A stretch of DNA of 64,000 nt from the NCBI RefSeq assembly GCF_022230885.1, contig NZ_JAKGCT010000004.1:1302001-1366000 (forward strand), given 5' to 3'. Shown here in pieces: positions 18,089 to 56,046 of this stretch. The position numbers and the translations under genes are program-made. Every line of letters starts with the position of its first letter. Position 1 is the stretch's first letter. The notes beneath the pieces are model-generated. The model had not been told where the DNA came from. It saw nothing but the letters and a program-made list of their open reading frames with translations, and searched no databases. The stretch comes from Paenalcaligenes niemegkensis. GTDB lineage: Bacteria; Pseudomonadota; Gammaproteobacteria; Burkholderiales; Burkholderiaceae_B.

Positions 18089-18670
18089 ATGAAAGACACG
18101 CTAAAAATAATTTCTTTGCCTAAAGCGCGTGATGTAAAAAACGGGAGACGACAATTTCTCAAGGGTTCTATCGTACTGACCGGGCTCTTAAGCAGCGGTT
18201 CAATGCTTGCCGTGCTGGCCCCCTCAAGGTCCTGGGCTCTGACAGCGCAGCATCTGAACGCTGAACAAGCCAATGCCCTTCTGCTCATGGCCAAACGCCT
18301 TTATCCACACAAAAATCTCTCAGATGCCGTCTATGCCGTGCTGGTCAAGGATATTGACGCTGCCTGTGCAGACCCGGCAAATAACAAACTCGTCACTGAC
18401 GGTATCGACAAACTGAATGCCGCTACGCAAGGAGACTGGGCAGGTTCGACAGCGGCCGAACAGGTGGCAGCATTAAAGACCATGGAGTCAGATCCTTTTT
18501 TTCAGATGATACGTGGTCAATGTATCCACTCCCTCTATGACAATGAAATGGCCTATGCGCATTTTGGCTACGAAGGTGAGTCATGGAGCAAAGGTGGCTA
18601 TTTAAGGCGTGGCTTTAGCGATCTGACCTGGCTCCCAAACCCGTCTGAAGCCGCCAGTCCATCACTGTAG
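18089..18670 (+). CDS. Tat-exported small subunit of a GMC dehydrogenase (gluconate 2-dehydrogenase subunit 3 family)
   Basis: Small partner subunit of a periplasmic FAD dehydrogenase. Residues 20-25 are a twin-arginine motif (RRQFLKG) followed by a hydrophobic stretch to about residue 50, so the folded complex is probably exported by Tat, carrying the GMC subunit, which has no signal of its own. The rest (about 140 residues, helical) fits the gluconate 2-dehydrogenase subunit 3 family. CAGGAGG is a strong ribosome binding site. The flavoprotein gene follows after 50 bases. Substrate unknown. Confidence 0.82.
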   Translation: MKDTLKIISLPKARDVKNGRRQFLKGSIVLTGLLSSGSMLAVLAPSRSWALTAQHLNAEQANALLLMAKRLYPHKNLSDAVYAVLVKDIDAACADPANNKLVTDGIDKLNAATQGDWAGSTAAEQVAALKTMESDPFFQMIRGQCIHSLYDNEMAYAHFGYEGESWSKGGYLRRGFSDLTWLPNPSEAASPSL

Positions 18671-18720
18671 AACCCCAGAAGTCATATAAATCATATAAAA
18701 AATCAGCTGAGGAGATCATT

Positions 18721-20289
18721 ATGAAAGAGTATGAACATACCGACGACAGTGTGGTCGTCATCATCGGCTCAGGTGCGGGCGGCGGGACACTAGCCAATGA
18801 ACTCTGCCAGAAAGGCATTAGTGTTGTATTACTTGAAGCAGGCGCACGACAAAGCCCAGCCACCTTCATTCAAGACGAATGGAAGTCATTTGCACAATTA
18901 GCATGGCTCGATAATCGAATCAGCTCGGGTTCATTTCGTCTAAGCAAAGACTTCCCTAATCTTCCCGCCTGGATCTGCAAGACAGTGGGTGGCACAACCA
19001 CACATTGGGCTGGTGCATCATTACGTTTCCCTGAACATGGGTTCAAAGCGCTCAGTACTTATGGCGAAGTTCAGGGTGCCAACCTGCTGGACTGGCCTAT
19101 TAGCCTATCCGACATGGCGCCCTATTATGAACGTGCCGAAAAGAAAATGGGGGTGACCCGCACCAATGGCTTGCCAGGGCTGCCCGGTAATAATAATTTC
19201 AAGGTTATGTACGACGGGGCCACTAAGCTGGGCTATAAGGAAGTCAGTACCGGACACATGGCTATTAACAGCGTCGTCAATGACGAACGCTCTGCCTGTA
19301 CCCAGCAGGGTTTCTGTTTTCAGGGATGCAAGATGGGCGCTAAATGGTCTACGCTTTATACCGAAATCCCCCATGCCGAGCGCACTGGCAAGCTAGAGCT
19401 ACGTTCCGAATGCCACGTTTCACAAATCGAACACGGCAACGATGGGAAAGCCAACGCTGTTGTTTATTTTGACAAAGACGGTAAAGAACAACGGCAAGCA
19501 GCCCGCGTTGTCTGTGTGGCCGGCAACTCCATCGAGACACCACGTCTATTACTGTTGTCAGAATCAGGCAAATTTAAAGATGGACTGGCAAACAGCTCTG
19601 GTCAGGTAGGGCGCAACTACATGCGCCATACAACGGGTTCGGTCTACGCTGTCTTTGATGAACCTGTACATATGTACCGGGGCACGACGATGGCTGGTAT
19701 TGTGCAAGACGAAGCGATTCATGACCCTTCTCGCGGCTTTGTAGGCGGCTACGAACTGGAAACCATTAGTTTGGGCCTGGCTTTTTATGCTGCATTTCTT
19801 GATCCAGGCGCATGGGGCGAAGAATTCGCCTCGTACATGGACGACTACACCCATACAGCAGGTTTATGGATAGTAGGAGAAGACATGGCACAGGAAAGCA
19901 ATCGAATTACCCTAGACCCCGAGGCCAAAGATCAGTACGGATTGCCAGCGGCAAATGTCCATTACGATGACCATCCCAACGATATTGCCATGAGAAATCA
20001 CGCTTTCAAGCAAAGCACGGCGCTTTACGAAGCGGCGGGGGCCAAACGTTCGTTTCAAACGCCTCCCTATCCCTCAACACACAATTTGGGCTCTTGCCGA
20101 ATGAGCGAGAACGCGAGCGACGGTGTTTGCAACAAGCATGGGCAAACACATGATGTCGCTAATCTGTTTATTTCAGATGGCAGCCAGTTCACCAGCAGTG
20201 CTGCCGAAAACCCGACCTTGACCATTGTGTCACTTGCCATCCGGCAAGCAGAATTCATTGCCGACAGCATGGCGCAAAAAGAACTTTGA
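18721..20289 (+). CDS. GMC-family FAD-dependent dehydrogenase, large subunit
   Basis: Flavoprotein that oxidises an alcohol or sugar, 522 residues. The FAD-binding GSGAGGGTLANEL is at residues 16-28, TVGGTTTHWAGASLRFPEH is the family's second signature, and HNLGSCRMS with SAAENPTLTIVSLAIRQ near the end carries the catalytic His/Asn region. Cys192, Cys198 and Cys202 (CTQQGFCFQGC) form a cluster that could hold an iron-sulfur centre, as in bacterial FAD glucose dehydrogenases; this is inference. No cytochrome c subunit gene follows, so the electron acceptor is unclear. GAGGAG precedes the ATG. Confidence 0.87.
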   Translation: MKEYEHTDDSVVVIIGSGAGGGTLANELCQKGISVVLLEAGARQSPATFIQDEWKSFAQLAWLDNRISSGSFRLSKDFPNLPAWICKTVGGTTTHWAGASLRFPEHGFKALSTYGEVQGANLLDWPISLSDMAPYYERAEKKMGVTRTNGLPGLPGNNNFKVMYDGATKLGYKEVSTGHMAINSVVNDERSACTQQGFCFQGCKMGAKWSTLYTEIPHAERTGKLELRSECHVSQIEHGNDGKANAVVYFDKDGKEQRQAARVVCVAGNSIETPRLLLLSESGKFKDGLANSSGQVGRNYMRHTTGSVYAVFDEPVHMYRGTTMAGIVQDEAIHDPSRGFVGGYELETISLGLAFYAAFLDPGAWGEEFASYMDDYTHTAGLWIVGEDMAQESNRITLDPEAKDQYGLPAANVHYDDHPNDIAMRNHAFKQSTALYEAAGAKRSFQTPPYPSTHNLGSCRMSENASDGVCNKHGQTHDVANLFISDGSQFTSSAAENPTLTIVSLAIRQAEFIADSMAQKEL

Positions 20290-33515: not shown

Positions 33516-34657
33516 TTAGCCAAGAACCGAGCGTGCAATAACGGTACGCTGAATCTCCGAAGATCCTTCATAGATACGCATAATGCGCGCGTCGCGCGCA
33601 TAACGTTCCAGCGGCAACTCACGGCTGAATCCATAGCCTCCATGGATCTGCAGCGCCGTATCGGTGATGAAACCCGCCGCTTCCGAGGCATACAACTTGG
33701 CCATAGACGCTTCAAGCGTAAAGCGCTTAGCTTCCATACGCAGTGCAAGTGCCTGCAGGGTCAGCCCCAAGCTGCCTCAAGACGAACTTTCATGTCTGCC
33801 AGCATCCACTGAATGCCCTGCTTGCTCGATAAAGGTTCACCGCCTATCTGGCGCTGCCTGGCCCATTCGACCGCTGCCTCAAAGGCTGCTTCTGCAATAC
33901 CCAAGCTGCTCGCCGCCACATCAAGACGGCTGTTATCCAAAACCTTCATGGCCAGAAGAAAACCCGTTCCCTCGTCCCCGAGCCGGTTCCCGGATGGAAC
34001 CTCACAATCGAGTGCCAGTTCAAAAGCGTGGCCTCCTCGTATCCCCATCAATTTTTCATGTGAAGACACTTGAACACCAGGCGAATTCCGGTCGAGTACA
34101 AAGGCACTAATGCCTCGGTGACCTGCCTGAGTGTCTGTTTTTGCATAGACAACGATGAAGTCCGCCTCATCAGCATTGGAGATGAAATGCTTCACCCCGC
34201 TTAGCCGGTAGGATTCACCCTGGCGTATAGCCCGGGTCGACATATCTGCCGGATTTGAACCCGCTCTGGGTTCAGTCAAGGCAAAAGCACCAAGTCGCGC
34301 TCCTGTGGCGGCATCAGGTAAGTAACGCTTTTTGATGTCGTCGTTACCACTCAGCAAAATCGAGTCAGTAGCCAGATAATGCGCGCCGACCATCGAGGCT
34401 GTGGACGCACATCGCTTCGCTATTTCTGCCAGTGACAGCACCAGGGCAACCGGACTAATTCCCGGACCACCCCACGTTTCTGGCAAGTTCATCCCCATTA
34501 CCCCTAACGCTGCCAAGCCAGGAACATAGCGCACCGTCGATATCTCGTCCTCATCAACCTGCTGCGCATACGGCCCCAGCTCAGTCTCGGCATAGCGCCC
34601 GACTGCCGCGGCGATCTCCAGATCTTCCTCGGTCACACCTAAACGTTTTTTTGTCAT
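33516..34657 (-). CDS. Acyl-CoA dehydrogenase (frameshifted)
   Basis: FAD enzyme introducing the alpha,beta double bond into an acyl-CoA, about 380 residues when restored. FALTEPRAGSNPADMST is the first family signature, QIHGGYGFSRELPLERYARD the second, and the catalytic Glu is in RIYEGSSEIQRTVIARS. The frame breaks at the CCCC run 33765-33768 (GGGG coding), where one extra G joins RLEAAW to GLTLQALALRMEAKRF. It follows the CaiB-type CoA-transferase gene and is probably co-transcribed with it under the divergent LysR regulator. Substrate unknown. Confidence 0.87.
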
Positions 34658-34743
34658 GTTCGCTCTCTATATGAAGACATAATCGGTAAACGGTTACAGA
34701 AATAACTTGTAGCTCTCAGGCGATAAGTCCCAGTCCACGGCCT

Positions 34744-35948
34744 TCAGCCCGCAGCTCCAAAAGCGCCAGCGGCACGCAACTCTTCGATGCGTGACTGAGC
34801 CAGGCCCAGCAACTCCCCCAGAGTCGCGTCAGTATGCTCACCCAGCCCCGGCGCACGTGTAACGCGATTGCCGTCATAGGCTGAGAACTTGACCGGCTGA
34901 GAAGGCAGCTTCATTCCTGGAAGGTTAGGATCGTCAACCGGGGACAAGACGCCCCTGTATACACTTTGCTCTGACGCGAGGGCCTGTCGTACGTTCCAGA
35001 TCGGAGCGACCGGAATATGTGCCGTCTCAAGGATTTCGCAGACTTCCTCTACGCTGAACTGCGTTGCCCAGCTTTCAATACAAGCGCGCAATTGGGGTTC
35101 GTGTGCAGAACGTGCCACATCGTCGGCAAAACGGGGATCGTCAATAAACTCCGGGTGCCCAATGAATGCAACAAACTGATGAAATAGCTTGTTATTCAGA
35201 ATGGCCAGCACGAAGTATCCGTCACGGGCTCGGTAAGCTCCGAACGGTGCCGATAACGGATGTCGGTTGCCTACGCGGTGGGCGTCCTGCCCGGTAAATA
35301 CGAACCGTGATACCGATGTTGCGGCAAAGGCCAGTGTCGAATCAAACATCGAAACATCTACGTGTGTGCCCAAGCCCGTACGCTCGCGAGAGTACAGTGC
35401 CACCAACGTGCCCCACGAAGCAAACAAACCGCTCAATACATCTGAGATAGCCTCGCCGATCAAGGTGGGCGGGCCATCTGGAAAGCCCGTTGCATCCATC
35501 ATCCCGCTCATGGCCTGGATAATGATGTCGTAAGCGGGCCGATGCGCTGCAGGCCCGTCCTGTCCAAAGCCAGAGACACTCACGTAAATGAGTTTGGGGT
35601 TAATGGCCTTCAAGGCTTCGTAGCCAATACCCAGTTTATCGGCGACACCAGGCCTGAAATTTTCAACCACCACATCAACTTGCCCGGCAATCTGGCGCGC
35701 CAGTGCGAGGCCGTCAGGGTGCTTCAGGTCCAGTGCGATACTTTTTTATTTCGGTTCATAACCGTAAATAATGCACTGGCCCCATTTTTCATAGGTCCGA
35801 TTGCCCGGTAATCATCGCCTTGTGGTGGCTCGATCTTGATGACCTCTGCACCCAGATCGCCCAGGAGCGCCGTACAGAACGGGCCCGCCAGAACCCGTGT
35901 GAAATCGGCGATACGCACGCCAGTTAGCGGCCGCTGTACGTCATCCAT
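34744..35948 (-). CDS. CaiB/BaiF family CoA-transferase (frameshifted)
   Basis: Family III CoA-transferase, about 400 residues, moving CoA between carboxylic acids. Start at ATG 35948, which follows AGGAG. N-terminal signature [19 protein letters not shown] and [18 protein letters not shown]; the catalytic Asp region is in the [15 protein letters not shown] part. The frame breaks at the T6 run 35742-35747 (A6 coding), where one more A gives [16 protein letters not shown]. With the acyl-CoA dehydrogenase it suggests activation and oxidation of an organic acid imported by the nearby ABC system (inference). Confidence 0.87.
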
Positions 35949-36081
35949 ACTATTCTCCTGATTCTGCAACGCTGTTGAGGTGTAGAACGCACACTGAACT
36001 AATCAGCACATTGAAGATAAATACTAGCCACTGTTCTGTATAATTAAAAATACTAAAAACTGATCATATGAATTAATTATT

Positions 36082-40874: not shown

Positions 40875-43304
40875 TTGAACTCACCCCTTAAACCCAAGCT
40901 GGGCATTGGCCGAATCTGGCTCTATGTTTTAGCACTTGGTTTGCTTGCTGCCGGCCTGTTTCTGGTCATTGGCGGCGGTACACTCATATCGCGCGGAGGC
41001 AGCTGGTACTTCTTGATCGCTGGTGCTGTGATCAGTGCATCTGCCATAGAAATAGCGCGTGGCCGCTCTACCGGGGCGTGGCTGTTCCTGGCTGTTTTCG
41101 CAGGCACTGTGGTCTGGGCTCTGGCAGATGTTGGTCTGGACTACTGGGGCCTGATTTCACGCTTGCTCGCCATGACATTTCTGGCTGCCGTAGTCGCAAT
41201 CACCCTGCCCTTGCTGCGCAAGGCCGAAGGCAGCAGCGCTTCAGGCAAGCCCGGTGTCCTTCTTGGTGTTGTACTGGGTATTCTGGGGCTAGTGGGCTTT
41301 GGCTCTATGTTCAGCAGTCACCCCGAAGTTATTGCCACAACCCCGGCCAGTCGCCAAATAGCTGTCGCACCAGAGCAGGAACAAAAGAACTGGGCTCACT
41401 ACGGTAACGATGCTGGCACTGGCCGCTTTGCCGCACTGGACCAAATCAATGTCGGCAACGTCAATGAGCTTGAACAGGCGTGGGTGTTCCAAACGGGCGA
41501 CATCCCCGAGTCAACGGGTTCCGGTGCTGAAGACCAGCTGACCCCCATGCAAATTGGTGACAAGCTATTTTTGTGCACACCTAAGAATAACGTTATTGCA
41601 TTAGATGTTGACAGCGGCGAACAGCTTTGGAGACGCGACTTTAATGCTAACGTAGGCGGCGTTTGGGAGCGTTGTCGTGGATTGGCGTATTTTGATGCGG
41701 AAGCTCCTTTGGTTCAGCCGACGGTGCCCGGCTCTACCCCGGTCCCGCCCGTCACCCTGGCCGCCAACAGCAGTTGCCAGCGCCGCGTGCTGATGAACAC
41801 CATTGATTCACGTCTGGTAGCCATTAATGCTGACAATGGCGAGATGTGCGACGACTTCGGCGACAACGGCATTGTCGACCTGAAGGCTAACATTGGCCCC
41901 ATCGCCAACGAGGCCTTCTACACCATGACGGCCGCTCCGACCGTAGCGGGCACAACCGTGGTGGTCGGGGGACGCATTGCCGATAACGTGCAGGTAGACA
42001 TGCCTGGTGGCGTTGTGCGGGGTTTTGATGTCATTACCGGCGAAATGCGCTGGCACTTTGACCCGGGCGCCGACGATCCCAATGCGTCTTTGGGCGACAA
42101 CGACACCTACCAGCGCTCCACACCGAATGTATGGGCTGGAATCTCCTATAATGCAGACATGAACACCGTGTTCCTGCCGCTAGGGTCACCCTCGGTGGAT
42201 CTGTACGGCGCGACTCGCACCGCTCTCGACAGGAAATATGGCGCCACTATACTGGCACTTGACGCTAGCACTGGCAAAGAAAAATGGCACTTCCAGACTG
42301 TGCACAACGATCTGTGGGATTTCGACGTACCCATGGCGCCAGCGCTCATCGACTTCCCTGAAGCAAATGGAAGCAAAGTGCCCGCGGTGGTGGTAGCTAC
42401 CAAAGCTGGACAAATTTTCGTGCTTGACCGCCTGACAGGCCAACCGCTGACCGAAGTCGAAGAACGCGAGGTGCTGCCGGCCAGCATCCCCAACGAAGAT
42501 TACGCCAAGACTCAGCCTGTTTCTGTAGGCATGCCGCAAATTGGTACGCAGACACTAACCGAATCTGATATGTGGGGCGCCACGCTGTTCGATCAGCTCC
42601 TTTGCCGCAATGACTTCAAGGCCATGCGCTACGAAGGCTTGTTCACGGCACCCGATACCGACGTTTCCCTCTCGTTTCCCGGTTCGCTGGGTGGCATGAA
42701 CTGGGGTGGGATTTCGCATGACCCCAACAACGATCTCATCTTCCTGAACGACATGCGCCTGGGGCTGTGGATACGCATGGTCCCACAACAGGCTGGCGAT
42801 CAGATGTCAGACGGCGGCGAAGCCCCCAACACTGGCATGGGACAAGTACCATTGGGCGGCACGCCTTACTCGGTCATCAAGGATCGATTCCTGTCGCCGC
42901 TGGGTATTCCGTGCCAAAAACCGCCCTTTGGCACCATGACAGCCGTGGACCTGAAGACTCAACAAGTCGCTTGGCAAGTTCCTGTTGGCACCGTGAAAGA
43001 CACCGGCCCCATGGGCATCAAAATAGGCTTGCCCTTCGAAGTGGGCATGCCCACCCTGGGCGGCTCGCTGGCCACACAGGGTGGACTGCTGTTCTTTGCA
43101 GGTACCCAGGACTACTATCTGCGAGCTTTCGACACCGCAAATGGTAAAGAGGTGTGGAAAGAACGACTGCCTGTTGGAAGCCAAGGCAGCCCCATCACCT
43201 TCAAGTCGCCTAAAACCGGCAAACAATATGTGGTTATTTCAGCGGGCGGCGCACGACAATCGCCTGACCGTGGCGATTACGTGATCGCCTACAGCCTGCC
43301 CTAA
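40875..43304 (+). CDS. Membrane-bound PQQ-dependent dehydrogenase, glucose/quinate/shikimate family
   Basis: Quinoprotein that oxidises a polyol or sugar in the periplasm and passes electrons to ubiquinone, 809 residues. Start is TTG with AAAGGAG upstream. Five N-terminal membrane helices (about 1-145) are followed by an eight-bladed propeller with tryptophan-docking repeats (NALDVDSGEQLWRRDF, LALDASTGKEKWHFQTVHND, AVDLKTQQVAWQVPVGT). VHNDLWDFDVPMAPAL is the PQQ-site signature. Substrate could be glucose, quinate or shikimate; the pcaIJF genes nearby make quinate/shikimate attractive but unproved. No pqq biosynthesis genes in the window; a PqqU-like receptor faces it. Confidence 0.93.
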   Translation: MNSPLKPKLGIGRIWLYVLALGLLAAGLFLVIGGGTLISRGGSWYFLIAGAVISASAIEIARGRSTGAWLFLAVFAGTVVWALADVGLDYWGLISRLLAMTFLAAVVAITLPLLRKAEGSSASGKPGVLLGVVLGILGLVGFGSMFSSHPEVIATTPASRQIAVAPEQEQKNWAHYGNDAGTGRFAALDQINVGNVNELEQAWVFQTGDIPESTGSGAEDQLTPMQIGDKLFLCTPKNNVIALDVDSGEQLWRRDFNANVGGVWERCRGLAYFDAEAPLVQPTVPGSTPVPPVTLAANSSCQRRVLMNTIDSRLVAINADNGEMCDDFGDNGIVDLKANIGPIANEAFYTMTAAPTVAGTTVVVGGRIADNVQVDMPGGVVRGFDVITGEMRWHFDPGADDPNASLGDNDTYQRSTPNVWAGISYNADMNTVFLPLGSPSVDLYGATRTALDRKYGATILALDASTGKEKWHFQTVHNDLWDFDVPMAPALIDFPEANGSKVPAVVVATKAGQIFVLDRLTGQPLTEVEEREVLPASIPNEDYAKTQPVSVGMPQIGTQTLTESDMWGATLFDQLLCRNDFKAMRYEGLFTAPDTDVSLSFPGSLGGMNWGGISHDPNNDLIFLNDMRLGLWIRMVPQQAGDQMSDGGEAPNTGMGQVPLGGTPYSVIKDRFLSPLGIPCQKPPFGTMTAVDLKTQQVAWQVPVGTVKDTGPMGIKIGLPFEVGMPTLGGSLATQGGLLFFAGTQDYYLRAFDTANGKEVWKERLPVGSQGSPITFKSPKTGKQYVVISAGGARQSPDRGDYVIAYSLP

Positions 43305-43337
43305 AGCCGCTAATCGTACATCTGTAATTTGATATTC

Positions 43338-43368
43338 AGCCCCGGCGCTCAAACGTCGGGGCTTTTTT
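43338..43368 (+). terminator. Rho-independent terminator of the PQQ dehydrogenase gene
   Basis: AGCCCCG (43338-43344) pairs with CGGGGCT (43357-43363), extended by two more pairs, then six T. It also lies 25 bases after the pqqU stop on the other strand and may serve both. Confidence 0.85.
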
Positions 43369-43393
43369 ATAGTCGGCCCGTCGGGCTGCTGAC

Positions 43394-45594
43394 TTAAAAC
43401 TGATACGAAGCACTAAGCCCGGCTATCCAGTTCCGGCCCGGAGCTGGTTCGTAATAGCGGCGAAAGCCCGCATTGATGATAGCCGAGCCTGCGTAGTTAC
43501 GATCAAAAACGTTATCTACCCGGGCAAAGGCATTTACTTTCCAGCTGTCCAGCTGCCACAAATAGCCCGCATGCACCGCCGCTGTAAAATAGCCCGGTGC
43601 CGCCTCATCGTTGGCATCGTTCACATGAAATTTACTTAATAAGCGACCTTCCACACCTGCACGCCAGCCCTGCGGAGGCGCCCAGTCAAGCGAAGCGAAC
43701 AGGGCTTGCCTGGCAATGCCTGGGATTTGATTACCCGAAGGGATCAGGTTGGCAGCTTCTGTGGCACCGCTATAAAAATCATCTCGATATTTCGCATCCA
43801 GGAAGGTGTAGGCAAAGGCACCATGCCAGTGAGGCGCGACCTCTCCCATCCAGCTAAGCTCAAGACCATTGCGGCGGGTACGCCCGGCATTACGATAAGT
43901 AGTGCGGCCTCCATTGGCTTCCGCATTGATTATTTCATCGTCAGTGCGTGTCTGAAATACAGCGGCTGTAAAGAGGCCATCGCCAAGCTTGGCCTTTGCG
44001 CCGACTTCCACGCTGGTATTGACCGAGGGCTGCAGGTCAAAATTAAGTCCTGGCAACTGATCAGAGCGATACGAGATTTCGTTAAAGGTAGGCGTTTCGA
44101 AACCTCGTCCGGCCGTGGCGTACAGATTAAGACCCGGCGTAGCCTGATAGCGCAAAGCGGCCATAGGTAACGCTTTGCTGTAGCGAGCAGAGCCACTGTC
44201 GTCGCCATTGCCAGCGGTAATGTAACGATCATCCGATTTGAAACGCACAGTGCTGTACCGCAGGCCGGCATCCAGCGTCCACTGCTCTGCAAACTGCCAG
44301 GATGCCTGCAGATAGGGGTCTATGTTCCATAGTTCGTTGCTTTCCTTGCGCCGCAACTGACCTTTAACGCCCAGCTGTTCGGTGGCGCCACTGCCGGTGA
44401 AATTCTCATAGCCTCGCCGATCTTCCTTCAAGGCATCGTAGGCAACCCCGGCAATCACAGTCAGGGGCCGGTCGGCAAAGGACAAACGTGAGGTCCAGCG
44501 CGCATCGACTCCGCCATAATCACGGCCCAGATTAATGACTCCCCGGCGTGGCCTTCCGGAGCCTGGGTTGACACCGGAATCGCCTGAAACTGCTCGGTCT
44601 TGCGCTGACCGTAATAGCCCATCACGCGCAAGTCATTATCGGCATTGATGCGCTGCTCGTATACAAGCCCACCCTGAGTCTGCTTGACAGTTTTACGGGT
44701 ATTGAATGTCAGGGCGTTCGGCGCTGCGTTGCGCGGGCTATTCCTGAACTCATCGTACGTTAAGCCCTGGGGATCATCCGCACTGATATCTACGCTATTG
44801 AGAACCACCGTTAGCCTGCTGTCGTTATCAAGCTCCAGGCCCAGTTTGGCATTCGCCAGGTTCTTTCTAGCCGAACTGTGATCGCGATAACCTTCTGTGG
44901 TGTAGCGGCTGGTGCTCAGAACATAATCCATATCACCAGCCTGGGTGCCCGTTGCACCGCTGGCCTTCACGCCATAGCGATACTGGCTATCGCTGCCCAT
45001 GGTAAAGCTCGGGGTAATCGTCAGCGGTCCGCTGCCATCCTCAGTAAATGCCTGAATCACTCCCCCGGACGAATTACCGTATAAAGCTGAGAACGGCCCG
45101 CGCAATACTTCCACCCTGTCTAAGGAGGCGATATCAATATTGGATGTCTGTCCTTGCCCATCAGGCATCGTGGCCGGAATGCCATCCACATACAAGCGAA
45201 TTCCGCGCACACCGAAGGTAGAGCGCGAGCCAAAACCTCGCACGGAAATCTGTAGATCCTGAGCAAAATTCTGCCGGTTCTGAATGAGCATGCCCGGTAC
45301 ACCGCCCAGGCCTTCGGACAGATTGACCTGCATCTGGCCTTCGCGCATCATTGCGCCGTCGATCAGATTAACTGAGGCCGGTACTTCGAAAATTGGACGT
45401 TCGATTTGGGTACTGGTTACGACCACGGGTTTAAGCGTACTGATAACGGGCTCAGCCGTTATAGATGCAGCATCGGGAGCCCCTGAAGGAGCCGACGTCT
45501 GGGCAGCGACAGGGGTAGAAGCAACCAGGGAAGCCGCCGCCATGAGAAAACTATATTTCCGGCTCAGGCGAGCTTTGAGCATGCAAGTAGACAT
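43394..45594 (-). CDS. pqqU: TonB-dependent receptor, PqqU/YncD type (frameshifted)
   Basis: Outer-membrane beta-barrel receptor, about 730 residues when restored. After a signal peptide ending PVAAQ comes the plug domain, where NLSEGLGGVPGMLIQNRQNF, DLQISVRGFGSRSTFGVRG, RLYVDGIPATMPDGQGQTSN and VLRGPFSALYGNSSGGVIQ match E. coli YncD almost residue for residue; barrel segments (LWNIDPYLQASWQF, GNGDDSGSARYSK, YYEPAPGRNW) do too. YncD was shown to import PQQ and renamed PqqU. The frame breaks at the CCCC run 44541-44544; one extra G joins EGHAG to GVINLGRDYGGVDAR. It is convergent with a PQQ enzyme gene, so uptake of external PQQ for that enzyme is a natural reading. Confidence 0.87.
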
Positions 45595-46617: not shown

Positions 46618-46727
46618 ATTTTCATCATCGTAAGTAAAGAATCTACCTAAGGCGTCCGCAGCACTACTGCCTTTATCATTAATCCGGCGGCTATCGTAGA
46701 TATAGCCTCTATGTGCGAGAAACGAAA

Positions 46728-47417
46728 ATGATTAACAAAATTTGCCAGACAGCGGCAGAGGCCGTTGCTCCGGTTCACGACGGCGCCACCGTTATGATTG
46801 GTGGCTTTGGTCTGGCCGGTATGCCTGCTCAATTGATTGACGCTCTTATCGATAATGGGGCCGGCAACCTAACCATTATCAACAACAACGCCGGCAACGG
46901 TGATACAGGGCTGGCTGCGCTATTAAAAGCAAAGCGTGTACGTAAAATAATTTGCTCTTTTCCGAGGCAAAGCGACTCGTATGTTTTTGATGAACTCTAC
47001 CATGCCCGGGAAATCGAGCTTGAACTGGTACCTCAAGGCACTCTGGCTGAGCGCATACGTGCTGCAGGGGCAGGCATAGGCGGCTTCTTTACTCCAACAG
47101 CCTATGGTACCTTGCTGGCCGAAGGTAAAGAAACACGTGAAATTGACGGTAAGCACTATGTTCTGGAAGCCCCTTTACATGCCGACTTTGCACTGATCAA
47201 AGCGCATCGTGCCGACCGCTGGGGCAATCTGGTGTATAGAAAAACCGCACGCAATTTCGGTCCTATCATGGCTACTGCCGCCAAGACCACCATTGTACAA
47301 GTCACTGATATTGTCGAGCTGGGTGAACTTGACCCGGAAAGCATCGTGACGCCCAGCTTATTTGTAAATCGGGTTGTAGCACTTGCTTCCGCAGGAGATT
47401 CCAATGAAAAAGCTTAG
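46728..47417 (+). CDS. pcaI: 3-oxoadipate CoA-transferase subunit A
   Basis: Alpha subunit of a family I CoA-transferase that moves CoA from succinyl-CoA to 3-oxoadipate, 229 residues from ATG 46728. GATVMIGGFGLAGMPAQLIDAL is the glycine-rich signature, and LTIINNNAGNGDTGLAALL and SFPRQSDSYVFDELYH follow. It overlaps the beta-subunit start. The neighbouring pcaF thiolase identifies the pathway as beta-ketoadipate; by sequence alone acetoacetate transferase (AtoD/ScoA) would also fit. Confidence 0.88.
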   Translation: MINKICQTAAEAVAPVHDGATVMIGGFGLAGMPAQLIDALIDNGAGNLTIINNNAGNGDTGLAALLKAKRVRKIICSFPRQSDSYVFDELYHAREIELELVPQGTLAERIRAAGAGIGGFFTPTAYGTLLAEGKETREIDGKHYVLEAPLHADFALIKAHRADRWGNLVYRKTARNFGPIMATAAKTTIVQVTDIVELGELDPESIVTPSLFVNRVVALASAGDSNEKA

Positions 47418-48065
47418 TCGAAATGAAATGGCCGCTCTTGTAGCAGCTGATATCCCGGAAGGTGCTATTGTGAACCTGGGCATCGGGATGCCAACCATGG
47501 TGATTAATCACCTTGAGGCCGATCGGGAAGTCCTGTTGCACAGCGAGAACGGTGTTCTGGGCATGGGTCCCGAGCCGGCCAAGGGTGAAGAAGACGAAGA
47601 CCTCATCAACGCCGGAAAGCAATATGTGACACTCTTGGATGGTGGCGCTTATTTTCATCATGCTGACTCCTTCGCCATGATGCGGGGGGCCACATAGACA
47701 TCTGTGTGCTCGGCGCATTTCAAATCTCTGTCACTGGCGATCTAGCCAACTGGAGTACAGGTGCACCTGACGCTATTCCCGCCGTCGGTGGGGCAATGGA
47801 TCTGGCTATCGGCGCCAGGAAAGTCTATGTGATGACCGAGCATTTAACCAAGAAAGGCGAAAGCAAACTGGTCAATAGCTGCTCTTACCCCGTCACAGGG
47901 GTAGGCTGCGTAGATCGCATTTATACAGACCTTGCTATCATTGATGTAACTGATACTGGCTTGGCCGTCAGACAGATTTTCGCCGATCTGAGCTTTGACG
48001 AGCTACAAAAGCTCAGTGGTGTGCACATGCGCTATGAGCCTCTAACACAAACCGGAGCCGTTTAA
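47404..48065 (+). CDS. pcaJ: 3-oxoadipate CoA-transferase subunit B (frameshifted)
   Basis: Beta subunit with the catalytic Glu in LLHSENGVLGMGPEP, 220 residues when restored. ATG 47404 follows GCAGGAG. The frame breaks at the G6 run 47684-47689; one more G joins SFAMMRGGHI to the DICVLGAFQIS continuation, which proceeds through GGAMDLAIGARKVYVMTEH and VDRIYTDLAIIDV. Its stop overlaps the pcaF start (TAATG). Confidence 0.88.
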
Positions 48066-49267
48066 TGTCTGATGCTTATATTTGTGATGCTATCCGTACC
48101 CCTTTTGGTAAATATGGTGGCGCACTTTCGCAGGTACGTACTGATGACCTAGGTGCTGTGCCTATTAAAGCGCTGATTGAGCGTAACCCTGATGTAGACT
48201 GGAACGCCGTTGACGATGTGCTGTACGGCTGTGCAAACCAGGCCGGCGAAGACAATCGAAATGTAGCCAGAATGTCATCGTTACTAGCCGGATTGCCCAC
48301 CAGCGTGGCCGGTTCCACCCTTAACCGCTTATGTGGTTCCGGCCTGGACGCCATCGGCAGCGCAGCGCGTGCCATCCGCACCGGAGAAGCCAGCCTGATT
48401 ATTGCCGGAGGCGTAGAGAGCATGAGCCGTGCTCCCTTCGTTGTAGGCAAAGCCACCAGCGCCTTTGCGCGGACTCAGACCATGGAGGACACAACCATGG
48501 GCTGGCGCTTTGTCAACAAGGCTCTAAAGGCCGCTTATGGCGTCGACAGCATGCCGGAAACCGCCGAGACTGTGGCTACTGAATATAAAATCAGCCGCGC
48601 CGATCAAGACGCCTTCGCCTTACGCAGTCAGGAAAAAGCCGCCCTTGCACAACAGGAAGGCATTTTCGCCAAGGAAATCACTTCCGTCTGGGTTCCCCAG
48701 CGACGCGCCGATCCTATCGAAGTTCGCAATGACGAGCACCTGCGCAGCACGAGCTTGGAAGCGCTCGCGAAACTACGCGGCGTTGTCTCCCCAGAAGGAA
48801 GCGTGACAGCCGGCAATGCATCCGGCATTAATGACGGTGCGGTTGCGCTACTGCTGGCTGACTCGAAATCTGCCGAGAAATATGGTCTGCGCAAGCGGGC
48901 ACGCGTATTAGGAATGGCGACTATTGGCGTCGAACCGCGTATCATGGGTATAGGTCCGGCTCCGGCCACCCAAAAACTGCTGGCCCAGCTAAACATGAGC
49001 CTCGATCAGTTTGACGTGATTGAACTGAATGAAGCATTTGCCAGCCAGGGCCTGGCCGTCTTGCGCATGTTGGGTATCGCCGATGACGATCCTCGCGTGA
49101 ACCCAAATGGCGGTGCCATTGCCCTGGGTCATCCCCTGGGAGCCAGCGGAGCCCGACTGGTCACCACCGCTTTATACCAGCTTGAACGAACACAGGGCCG
49201 CTATGCATTGTGTACCATGTGTATTGGAGTAGGCCAAGGAATTGCCCTGGCCATCGAACGGCTGTAG
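48065..49267 (+). CDS. pcaF: 3-oxoadipyl-CoA thiolase
   Basis: Thiolase that splits 3-oxoadipyl-CoA to succinyl-CoA and acetyl-CoA, last step of the beta-ketoadipate pathway. 400 residues, the exact size of PcaF. Catalytic Cys in [14 protein letters not shown] (about residue 90), His in [16 protein letters not shown] and the second Cys in [30 protein letters not shown] is the typical PcaF/PaaJ N-terminus. Confidence 0.93.
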
Positions 49268-52872: not shown

Positions 52873-53466
52873 ATGACTTCCCCCTTCAAATTTTTATTTT
52901 CCTGCTCCACGCGCTCAAGCCTTTTGCAGTCAATGTGCACACCCTTTAACTCGCCTCATTCCCCCGGACGATAATCGCGTCCGTGACGTTTGCGAAAGCT
53001 GTGGGGCCGTGCATTATCAGAATCCAAGAAATGTAGTGGGTGTATTGCCAATATGGGAAGGAAAAATCTTGCTTTGCCGACGCGCCATTCATCCCCGGCA
53101 CGGATGGTGGACATTACCCGCGGGTTTCATGGAACTCAACGAAACCACTGTTGAAGGTGCTTTGCGCGAAACGGATGAAGAAGCGGGTGCGCAACTCGAC
53201 TTAGGCCCCCTCTATACGATTATTGATGTCCCTTACGCCCAACAGGTACACTTTTATTACTTAGGCTACCTGCGTAATGACGAGCTCAACCCCGGACCAG
53301 AAACTTCTGAAACCATGTTTGTATCACCCGATGAGATTCCATGGGACGAACTGGCTTTCAGAACCGTCAGCACCACTTTGGAGCACTATTGCGAAGACTT
53401 AAAAAAGGGGTATTCGAACCTCATTACTATGCCTTGGCCACGGGTGATCTTTCGAAGAAGGGATGA
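52873..53466 (+). CDS. NUDIX hydrolase with N-terminal zinc ribbon (frameshifted at both ends)
   Basis: Predicted nucleotide diphosphate hydrolase. The zinc ribbon FCSQCAHPLTRLIPPDD...VCESCG is readable from 52922, then VVGVLPIWEGKILLCRRAI and the Nudix box GFMELNETTVEGALRETDEE then AG. The natural start is unclear: ATG 52873 is out of frame with the ribbon and two missing bases (C5 and T5 runs nearby) would link them. Near the end, one extra base in A6/G4 at 53401-53410 gives KKGVFEPHYYALATGDLSKK and a stop at 53466 that overlaps the aat start, a much better end than the uncorrected frame, which runs deep into aat. Confidence 0.77.
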
Positions 53467-54226
53467 TGGAATTCAGCATCGCTTTCTTAGAGAAAGACAC
53501 GCCTTTTCCAGATACAGCGCTTGCCTCAGAAGATGGATTGCTGGCTGTAGGAGGAGACCTGTCCCTAGCCCGCCTGCTGGATGCCTATCATCAGGGTATA
53601 TTTCCGTGGTATAGCCCGGGAGATCCGATTTTGTGGTGGAGCCCTGACCCCAGGATGGTCCTCGATTGCAATAGCCTCAAGGTGTCGCGTTCGCTGGCAA
53701 AGCGCTGTCGTCAAATAGCCAGGAACGAACATTTGGCCGATGCTGACACACAGATACTGACCAACACCAGCTTTCTGCACGTCATTATGCAATGTGCCGC
53801 TACCCGGATTCGAAACGAAGGTACGTGGATAACTCCTGAAATTATTCGCGCCTACTTCAATCTTCATCAGGCAGGCTACGCACACAGTGTCGAGACATGG
53901 AGCAACGGCAAGTTGGTCGGTGGTCTATACGGAGTTTGCATAGGCCGATTCTTTTTGGTGAGTCGATGTTTGCCTCGCAAACCGACGCCAGCAAGGTCGC
54001 CCTGTACTATTTGGTGCAGTTCCTGAAAAAGAATCAAATCTCGCACGTAGATTGCCAGCAGGAAACCCGGCATCTTTCAAGTTTGGGAGCGGAGTCCATT
54101 CCTCGTTCTCAATTTAATCAGCTTCTGGCAAAGCACAAGAATCTACCCTCTCCGGTTTGGAAGCCAGGGCAACTTTTGGCCAACGGAGACCTTGCCCCAA
54201 TCGACGACCAATCCCATAATAAATAA
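53463..54226 (+). CDS. aat: Leucyl/phenylalanyl-tRNA-protein transferase (frameshifted)
   Basis: Enzyme that adds Leu or Phe to N-terminal Arg/Lys of proteins, marking them for ClpAP (bacterial N-degron pathway). About 254 residues when restored. LLAVGGDLSLARLLDAYHQG, IFPWYSPGDPILWWSPDPRM and GTWITPEIIRAYFNLHQAGY are signature blocks; the break is at T5 53952-53956, where one more T gives GRFFFGESMFASQTDASKVA. Overlaps the NUDIX stop and lies 34 bases before bpt. Confidence 0.9.
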
Positions 54227-54986: not shown

Positions 54987-55000
54987 TTTATTTTTAATTT

Positions 55001-56046
55001 ATGTCCATTTTATTAAGCAGCTATGCAGTCGTGCGTCCATTATTATTTTCAATGGACGCAGAGCGGGCACACGAGTTCACGTTGAAAGGGCTTAATACTG
55101 TCCATCAAAGCAAGCTAGGCAAACAACTTCTGCCTAAGGCGCCCGTAGCAAACCCCTTTAGCCTCATGGGTCTGAGCTGTCGTAATCGCGTCGGTCTAGC
55201 AGCCGGTCTGGACAAAAACGGCGCCTACATAGACGCGCTCGGAAGCCTTGGGTTCGGCTTCCTGGAAGTAGGTACAGTCACTCCCCTTCCCCAGCCGGGT
55301 AACCCCAAACCCAGATTATTCAGGTTGCCTCAGCGACAGTCGCTGATTAACCGTTTTGGTTTTAACAACGACGGGCTGAACATCTTTCTTGATAACGTAA
55401 AAGATAATGCCTGGCGAAAAAACGGTGGAATACTAGGCTTGAATATTGGCAAAAATGCGCTAACCCCCATGGAAGCCGCCGTCGAAGACTATCTGCTAGG
55501 CTTAGCTGGCGTGTACGAGCATGCTGATTACATTACGATCAATATCTCATCACCCAACACGCAGAATTTGCGCGAATTACAGGGTGAGGATCAATTAGGC
55601 GGTCTGCTGGCTACGCTGAACGAAAAGCGCAAGCAGCTTAGCGACCAGCATCAGCGCTATGTACCAATTGCCGTCAAAATTGCACCTGATCTTAGTCAGG
55701 AACAAGTCAAGATCATTGCGGATGTCTTAATCCAAAACGATATTGACGGCGTGATCGCCACTAACACCACCCTAAGCCGCGCTTCAGTAGAAGGTTTAGC
55801 ACATGCTCAAGAGCAAGGTGGCCTGTCAGGCCCCCCGTCCATGCATTATCTCTGGAAGTCATACGGGGCTTACGAAAGCAGTTGGGAAGCAGCTTTCCTG
55901 TTATTGGCGTTGGCGGTATTAACTCGGCGCAGGATGCCGTAGAAAAAATCGAGGCCGGCGCGTGCGCAGTACAGCTTTACACCGGGCTTATTTATCAAGG
56001 CCCAAAACTGGTGCATGACTGCATACACGCACTGAATCAAATATAA
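55001..56046 (+). CDS. pyrD: Dihydroorotate dehydrogenase (quinone), class 2 (frameshifted)
   Basis: Membrane-associated flavoenzyme of pyrimidine synthesis, about 347 residues. The N-terminal helix, [32 protein letters not shown] and [17 protein letters not shown] are class 2 markers. The frame breaks at C6 55831-55836; one extra C gives [20 protein letters not shown] and later [20 protein letters not shown], ending at 56046. As the gene is needed for growth without uracil, the break is almost surely an error. It follows bpt by 14 bases and a strong terminator comes after. Confidence 0.92.

Follow-up and report, generated by a model that had tools for sequence, protein, structure and literature searches.

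A PqqU receptor gene convergent with a QuiA-branch quinoprotein gene in Paenalcaligenes niemegkensis: a probable PQQ-supply pair in a genome that also carries PQQ synthesis genes

A membrane quinoprotein dehydrogenase gene that faces the gene of a TonB-dependent receptor raises the question of where the enzyme obtains its cofactor, pyrroloquinoline quinone (PQQ), and whether the organism relies on an external supply. We address this question for a locus of Paenalcaligenes niemegkensis (NCBI RefSeq assembly GCF_022230885.1) that lies in a stretch of 64,000 nucleotides, hereafter the window (contig NZ_JAKGCT010000004.1, here C4, positions 1,302,001 to 1,366,000 of the forward strand). An initial annotation of the window had described the two genes as a likely PQQ-scavenging pair in an organism that depends on external PQQ. 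The convergence that it noted is there, 89 bp separating the two stop codons, and the idea of a pair holds as far as the receptor's identity as PqqU and the recurrence of the linkage are concerned; a dependence on external PQQ is not supported. Because the genome has pqqABCDE near a methanol dehydrogenase (MxaFI) cluster, import is most likely not the sole PQQ source, and we think it probable that the two genes form a PQQ-supply pair in which import serves for recapture and opportunistic uptake.

The receptor gene spans 45594-43394 on the minus strand and is read in two pieces, one with the plug and the first part of the barrel and one with the remaining barrel, a split that the initial annotation did not mention. 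Its proposed match to E. coli YncD/PqqU across plug and barrel was borne out by phmmer searches of the PDB, in which the plug piece matched 6v81 at E 1e-109 and 9c4o at E 4e-109 and the barrel piece matched them at E 9e-107 and 1e-106, whereas the next PDB entries were far weaker (7e-10 for the plug, 5e-11 for the barrel). The two pieces cover 34-325 and 349-699 of 6v81, with 180/342 and 167/356 residues identical to K-12 PqqU (47-53%). Against the NF041535 profile, the plug piece scores 430 bits over positions 9-299 and the barrel piece 494 bits over 323-675 of 676, a match that becomes 298-675 once the reading of the second frame is extended upstream; the pieces thus nearly span the profile, and almost no receptor sequence appears to be missing. 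The published mark of PqqU is Y, F or W at position 99 together with R304 and R365 (Munder et al. 2025, PMC12124388), and F, R and R occupy these positions in the window receptor. Ten of the 11 binding-site residues compared are kept, namely the equivalents of Q84, Q121, K274, R304, Q308 and Q310 on the plug-side piece, where F replaces Y99, and of R365, N477, Y481 and R536 on the barrel piece. All 23 related receptors compared carry F or Y at 99, R304 and R365, and 85 of a wider family set of 99 whole receptors bear the signature; the signature discriminates, since the other 14 (13 receptors of genus g34 and that of genome G149) fall outside it. Homology and the published binding signature together support the window receptor as a predicted PqqU.

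It is very unlikely that the receptor takes up some other ligand and stands beside a quinoprotein gene incidentally. Assigning a TonB receptor from overall similarity is difficult (PMC12124388), and the pieces (430 + 494 bits) lie under the curated NF041535 cut-off of 1200 bits; yet that cut-off was reached in 0/91 and 0/250 kin genomes searched while E. coli reaches it, and it is therefore narrow. Moreover, all signature residues are present, whereas the distant g34 receptors have neither an aromatic residue at 99 nor R536, and the linkage of the receptor to quinoproteins is a repeated one. The 13 g34 receptors (L279-L291; genomes G110, G133, G154, G172, G187, G201, G224, G232, G238, G243, G247, G255 and G259) are worth an observation of their own. 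They have Ser at 99, keep R304 and R365, and score 511-555 bits against the PqqU profile; pqqE is found in 12 of the 13 genomes, in seven of them on the same contig at a distance of 40-63 kb. Their ligand may be a different compound or a modified form of the quinone.

The TIGR03074 family comprises membrane-bound glucose, quinate and shikimate quinoproteins. The window dehydrogenase is encoded by a single intact open frame of 809 aa, which exceeds the curated cut-off of this family in a profile search (1022 vs 832.65 bits) and matches PF01011 at 705 bits; for this gene and for the receptor alike, the matches are far beyond chance. In a tree of 135 members built by a quick method, it groups with the enzymes of genome G147 (84% identity) and Comamonas JUb58 (69%), and a 60-row branch with a Shimodaira-Hasegawa-like approximate likelihood ratio (SH-aLRT) value of 100 contains both the window dehydrogenase and QuiA-type enzymes of Acinetobacter. 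Identity to the dehydrogenases of Acinetobacter qui-type loci is 60-61% over ~795 residues. E. coli Gcd shares the TIGR03074 family and conserved catalytic positions with the window dehydrogenase, which retains the equivalents of R266, D354, W404, D466, K493, N607 and D730, but it lies on a separate branch, is 39% identical, and differs at H262, which is W in the window enzyme, and at H775, which falls in an alignment gap; we take the compared residues, H262 and H775 included, to have the functional roles usually given to them in Gcd. The branch, the identity and positions 262 and 775 rule out a Gcd-type glucose dehydrogenase, and the comparison with the E. coli enzyme originally drawn for this locus is not supported. 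Judged by its sequence, the enzyme is a member of the QuiA branch and not of the glucose type, and its substrate would be quinate or shikimate.

Is the pairing more than an accident of one genome? We surveyed a sample of 250 family genomes, that of the window among them, and found a receptor profile match (E up to 1e-60) in 103, the dehydrogenase in 66 and PqqE in 55. The dehydrogenase count compares with 65 genomes strictly over the cut-off: three enzymes below it were retained (G137 at 770 bits, and the second copies of G020 and G226 at about 790), and G038, G046, G167, G202 and G225 (at 228 to 647 bits, under the cut-off), as well as second, divergent copies in G144, G163, G173, G188, G244 and G248, were not counted. 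Likewise, 54 genomes have PqqE over its cut-off, the partial protein of G129 having been retained, and the second PqqU copy of G275 was left out. Receptor and dehydrogenase genes occur together in 52 genomes; in 17 of these, from 8/19 genera, they are separated by less than 1 kb, against a chance expectation of 0.11 genomes (random places, rounded genome sizes). All four arrangements occur: convergent (the window, G164 and G181), divergent (G019) and both tandem orders. The label 'linked' is forced to change at least seven times on the dehydrogenase tree and at least six times on the PqqU tree (starred branches), gains and losses not being distinguished. By comparison, pqqU and pqqE lie within 5 kb of each other in 0/22 family genomes, and dehydrogenase and pqqE in 0/14. 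The parts of the pair belong to known families, and the pairing is real and more general than one locus.

PQQ import by PqqU is already known and widespread; what is new here is that pqqU lies directly beside membrane quinoproteins in members of this family and, in at least one instance, in Acinetobacter. In the portions available to us of the literature on PqqU/YncD, PQQ TonB receptors and quinate dehydrogenase, no pqqU-dehydrogenase gene linkage was found, and the available part of the PqqU study describes synteny tests of PqqU with biosynthesis genes only, none with dehydrogenases (PMC12124388). The same source mentions four Burkholderiales cases of PqqU near pqqE. A locus resembling these came up in another family of the same order, where PqqU lies about 550 bp from pqqE (L063, G069:C5:217599-221241).

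The assembly that contains the window (3.67 Mb, seven contigs, 94.6% complete) carries, on contig C2, the genes pqqA, pqqB, pqqC, pqqD and pqqE in this order. PqqA has 24 aa and matches TIGR02107 at 42.7 bits (cut-off 20), pqqB lies in two pieces and frames that both match TIGR02108, and PqqC, PqqD and PqqE score 334, 107.6 and 522 bits over cut-offs of 240, 101 and 381. The genes mxaFJGI encode the methanol dehydrogenase system; mxaF (in two pieces), mxaJ, mxaG and mxaI are found on C2 at ~6-9 kb from the pqq genes, and a third quinoprotein gene, of methanol/ethanol type and also split, is at C4:229-231 kb. The genome check for pqqA-E that the initial annotation had recommended therefore returns, at sequence level, the full set with pqqB split, and the organism presumably makes PQQ. 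Contamination as the source of the pqq genes is not supported, as the composition of C2 resembles that of C4: seven sampled C2 stretches have a guanine-plus-cytosine (GC) content of 0.50-0.52 and tetranucleotide correlations of 0.90-0.96 to the C4 mean, which was taken over five stretches, compared with 0.96-0.98 for C4 stretches, five of six of which are part of that mean. As a separate observation, the first 20 kb of contig C5 (G000:C5:1-20000, L099) have a GC content of 0.61, other sampled stretches being at 0.50-0.53, and a correlation of 0.77 to C4, which suggests a foreign replicon or contamination at that contig's start.

These genes bear on the possibility that the organism is unable to make PQQ and has PqqU as its sole source, which we regard as highly improbable. 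It would fit with the split of pqqB into two frames, with the presence of PqqU in 42/52 family dehydrogenase genomes without pqqE, and with the three Acinetobacter genomes described below that have a quiA-pqqU tandem and no pqqE found. However, pqqA, pqqC, pqqD and pqqE are open, above their cut-offs and near the methanol dehydrogenase cluster, split genes are common in this assembly, those for dihydroorotate dehydrogenase and leucyl/phenylalanyl-tRNA transferase included, and pqqE is present alongside seven of the family's 17 linked pairs (the window and six of genus g40). Because of these seven, the pair is not diagnostic of auxotrophy, and it marks PQQ auxotrophs only loosely. Recapture and opportunistic uptake beside the organism's own synthesis are in line with the report that PQQ producers use systems against diffusive PQQ loss (PMC12124388). 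Two counts over the 250 genomes, uncorrected for relatedness and with only signature-positive receptors taken as PqqU, also favour this reading: the dehydrogenase is present in 52/89 PqqU genomes vs 14/161 others, and among dehydrogenase genomes PqqU is nearly as frequent with pqqE (10/14) as in its absence (42/52, p 0.47). Munder et al. report biosynthesis genes in 23% of PqqU genomes (PMC12124388).

Several observations nevertheless weigh against this reading. In statistics computed across the 250 genomes without correction for relatedness, and with only the 89 genomes with signature-positive receptors taken as PqqU genomes, pqqE is present in 10/89 of these vs 45/161 others (odds ratio 0.33, p 0.002). 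The negative association with pqqE appears only without the signature-negative receptors, because profile matches alone over-count PqqU: when all profile receptors are counted, 22 genomes have PqqU and pqqE and no association is seen (odds ratio 0.94, p 0.88). The receptor gene does not read through in a single frame, the switch lying near 44.54 kb, and pqqB is broken as well. In ten other genomes of the window's genus, searches returned no receptor, dehydrogenase or pqqE, so that the pair is either recent or often lost. Outside the family, just three of the best 80 named dehydrogenase relatives have PqqU in the flank covered (up to 7 kb). Finally, at 94.6% completeness the genome has no match to type I dehydroquinase (PF01487) or to the protocatechuate 3,4-dioxygenase beta subunit (TIGR02422), and no relative of the QuiC-like (NosD-like) protein of Acinetobacter in a search made without a positive control; a quinate pathway is not shown, since none of the three was found. 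Set apart from these points, genus g4 (27 receptor genomes) has 24 genomes with a signature-positive PqqU and with neither a counted TIGR03074 dehydrogenase nor pqqE, TIGR03074 proteins being the only quinoproteins searched for.

The frame switch and the negative association could both be explained if pqqU were a true pseudogene, a receptor decaying because import became dispensable once the pqq-mxa genes were present. Genus g13 would fit such a history, as two of its four dehydrogenase-bearing genomes have PqqU without pqqE and two pqqE without PqqU, none having both. Nonetheless, we consider decay unlikely. Nine genes in the window are split by eye, pqqU included, and in 5/5 other split genes tested (acyl-coenzyme A (CoA) dehydrogenase, CoA-transferase III, dihydroorotate dehydrogenase, leucyl/phenylalanyl-tRNA transferase and a CoA-transferase subunit) the second frame carries on the Pfam domain begun in the first. 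Split-gene sites are at 33519-36002, 47380-48062, 53448-54223 and 54998-56043, with further ones by eye at about 12.1-13.4, 32.5-33.3 and 61.8-62.6 kb, and pqqB and mxaF are split elsewhere in the genome. In addition, apart from the break the receptor has its full length and keeps its binding residues, and six g40 and three g28 genomes retain PqqU together with pqqE. Since other genes, housekeeping ones included, break in the same way, an assembly indel error is likelier than decay of pqqU, and the frame breaks are presumably harmless. Frame-dependent claims from an assembly so rich in split genes call for care.

Known systems place the reading of a PQQ-supply pair in a wider setting. E. coli PqqU (6v81, 9c4o) has the same plug and barrel as the window receptor, in an unbroken frame, but its gene sits between mcbR and yncE, whereas the window pqqU adjoins a dehydrogenase gene; E. 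coli also differs from the window genome, which has pqqA-E, in being without PQQ biosynthesis genes (PMC12124388). QuiA is the membrane quinate dehydrogenase of Acinetobacter baylyi ADP1, where a pcaI-quiA operon has been described (PMC4213383). The likeness of the window enzyme to QuiA rests on dehydrogenases of Acinetobacter qui loci, with the ADP1 protein itself outside the comparison. In three closely related loci, those of Acinetobacter sp. ANC 4910 (L178), ANC 4178 (L176) and ANC 4173 (L177), quiA and pqqU form a tandem, so that a QuiA-branch dehydrogenase adjoins PqqU as it does in the window, although the Acinetobacter genes are on the same strand and the window pair is convergent. The order in L178, the locus for which a family search of qui-type neighbours was made, is carboxymuconolactone decarboxylase, two dioxygenase subunits, type I dehydroquinase, NosD-like protein, OprB porin, dehydrogenase and pqqU. 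We take the NosD-like protein to be QuiC and the porin QuiX. Acinetobacter QuiA thus lies beside qui genes, whereas no qui genes were recognised next to the window dehydrogenase, whose genome has no match to type I dehydroquinase or to the protocatechuate 3,4-dioxygenase beta subunit. PqqE was not found in these three linked genomes, in seven other Acinetobacter genomes or in Comamonas JUb58, in a search that matched both positive controls, Serratia and Enterobacter.

As to how the pair might work, PqqU would capture extracellular PQQ and carry it across the outer membrane, and the imported PQQ would load the apo-dehydrogenase in the periplasm, which would then hand electrons to ubiquinone. 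Transport by this receptor and loading of this enzyme are predicted from sequence. Import would thus mean recapture of lost PQQ and opportunistic uptake beside the organism's own synthesis. It is tempting to extend this scheme and to regard pqqU as a portable cofactor-supply gene that was placed independently several times beside glucose-type, QuiA-type and other quinoproteins, that swaps with PQQ synthesis in some lineages, with the route being switchable within a genus, and that recaptures leaked PQQ where pqq and methanol dehydrogenase genes are present; we put this forward tentatively, as a possibility somewhat short of an even chance. Genus g13 offers natural contrasts for the choice between making and importing PQQ, as does Acinetobacter, with linked pqqU and no pqqE found on one side and A. 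baylyi ADP1 with pqq genes on the other. The linkage may also help in recognising PQQ importers among orphan TonB receptors, within the limit that the pair does not tell producers and scavengers apart.

Table 1. Features at the PqqU-dehydrogenase locus and in its surroundings (positions within the window)
Feature	Position	Strand	Basis
Membrane-bound PQQ-dependent dehydrogenase, QuiA branch of the glucose/quinate/shikimate family (by sequence)	40875..43304	+	TIGR03074, PF01011, tree
Terminator-like hairpin between the convergent stops, 10 pairs, T-rich tail	43338..43363	terminator-like on + strand	consensus + fold
Predicted PqqU, beta-barrel piece, second reading frame, 363 aa from first in-frame start codon	43394..44485	-	NF041535, 6v81
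Predicted PqqU, N-terminus, plug and first barrel part, first reading frame, 377 aa	44461..45594	-	NF041535, 6v81
CoA-transferase subunits (second split in two frames) and thiolase, membership not shown	46713..49267	+	PF01144, PF00108/PF02803

The surroundings of the pair add minor features (Table 1). The hairpin was the one match to the consensus, with 0.3 expected, and the RNA fold of the intergenic stretch 43305-43393 has a z of -2.78. The CoA-transferase and thiolase genes are probably pcaIJF-like. At 3.4 kb from the pair they would hint at a quinate pathway, for which neither a type I dehydroquinase nor a protocatechuate 3,4-dioxygenase beta subunit was found in the genome. Further away in the window (18089-20289), a GMC-type oxidoreductase comes after a small protein with a signal-like start, and the two resemble gluconate 2-dehydrogenase subunits by eye.

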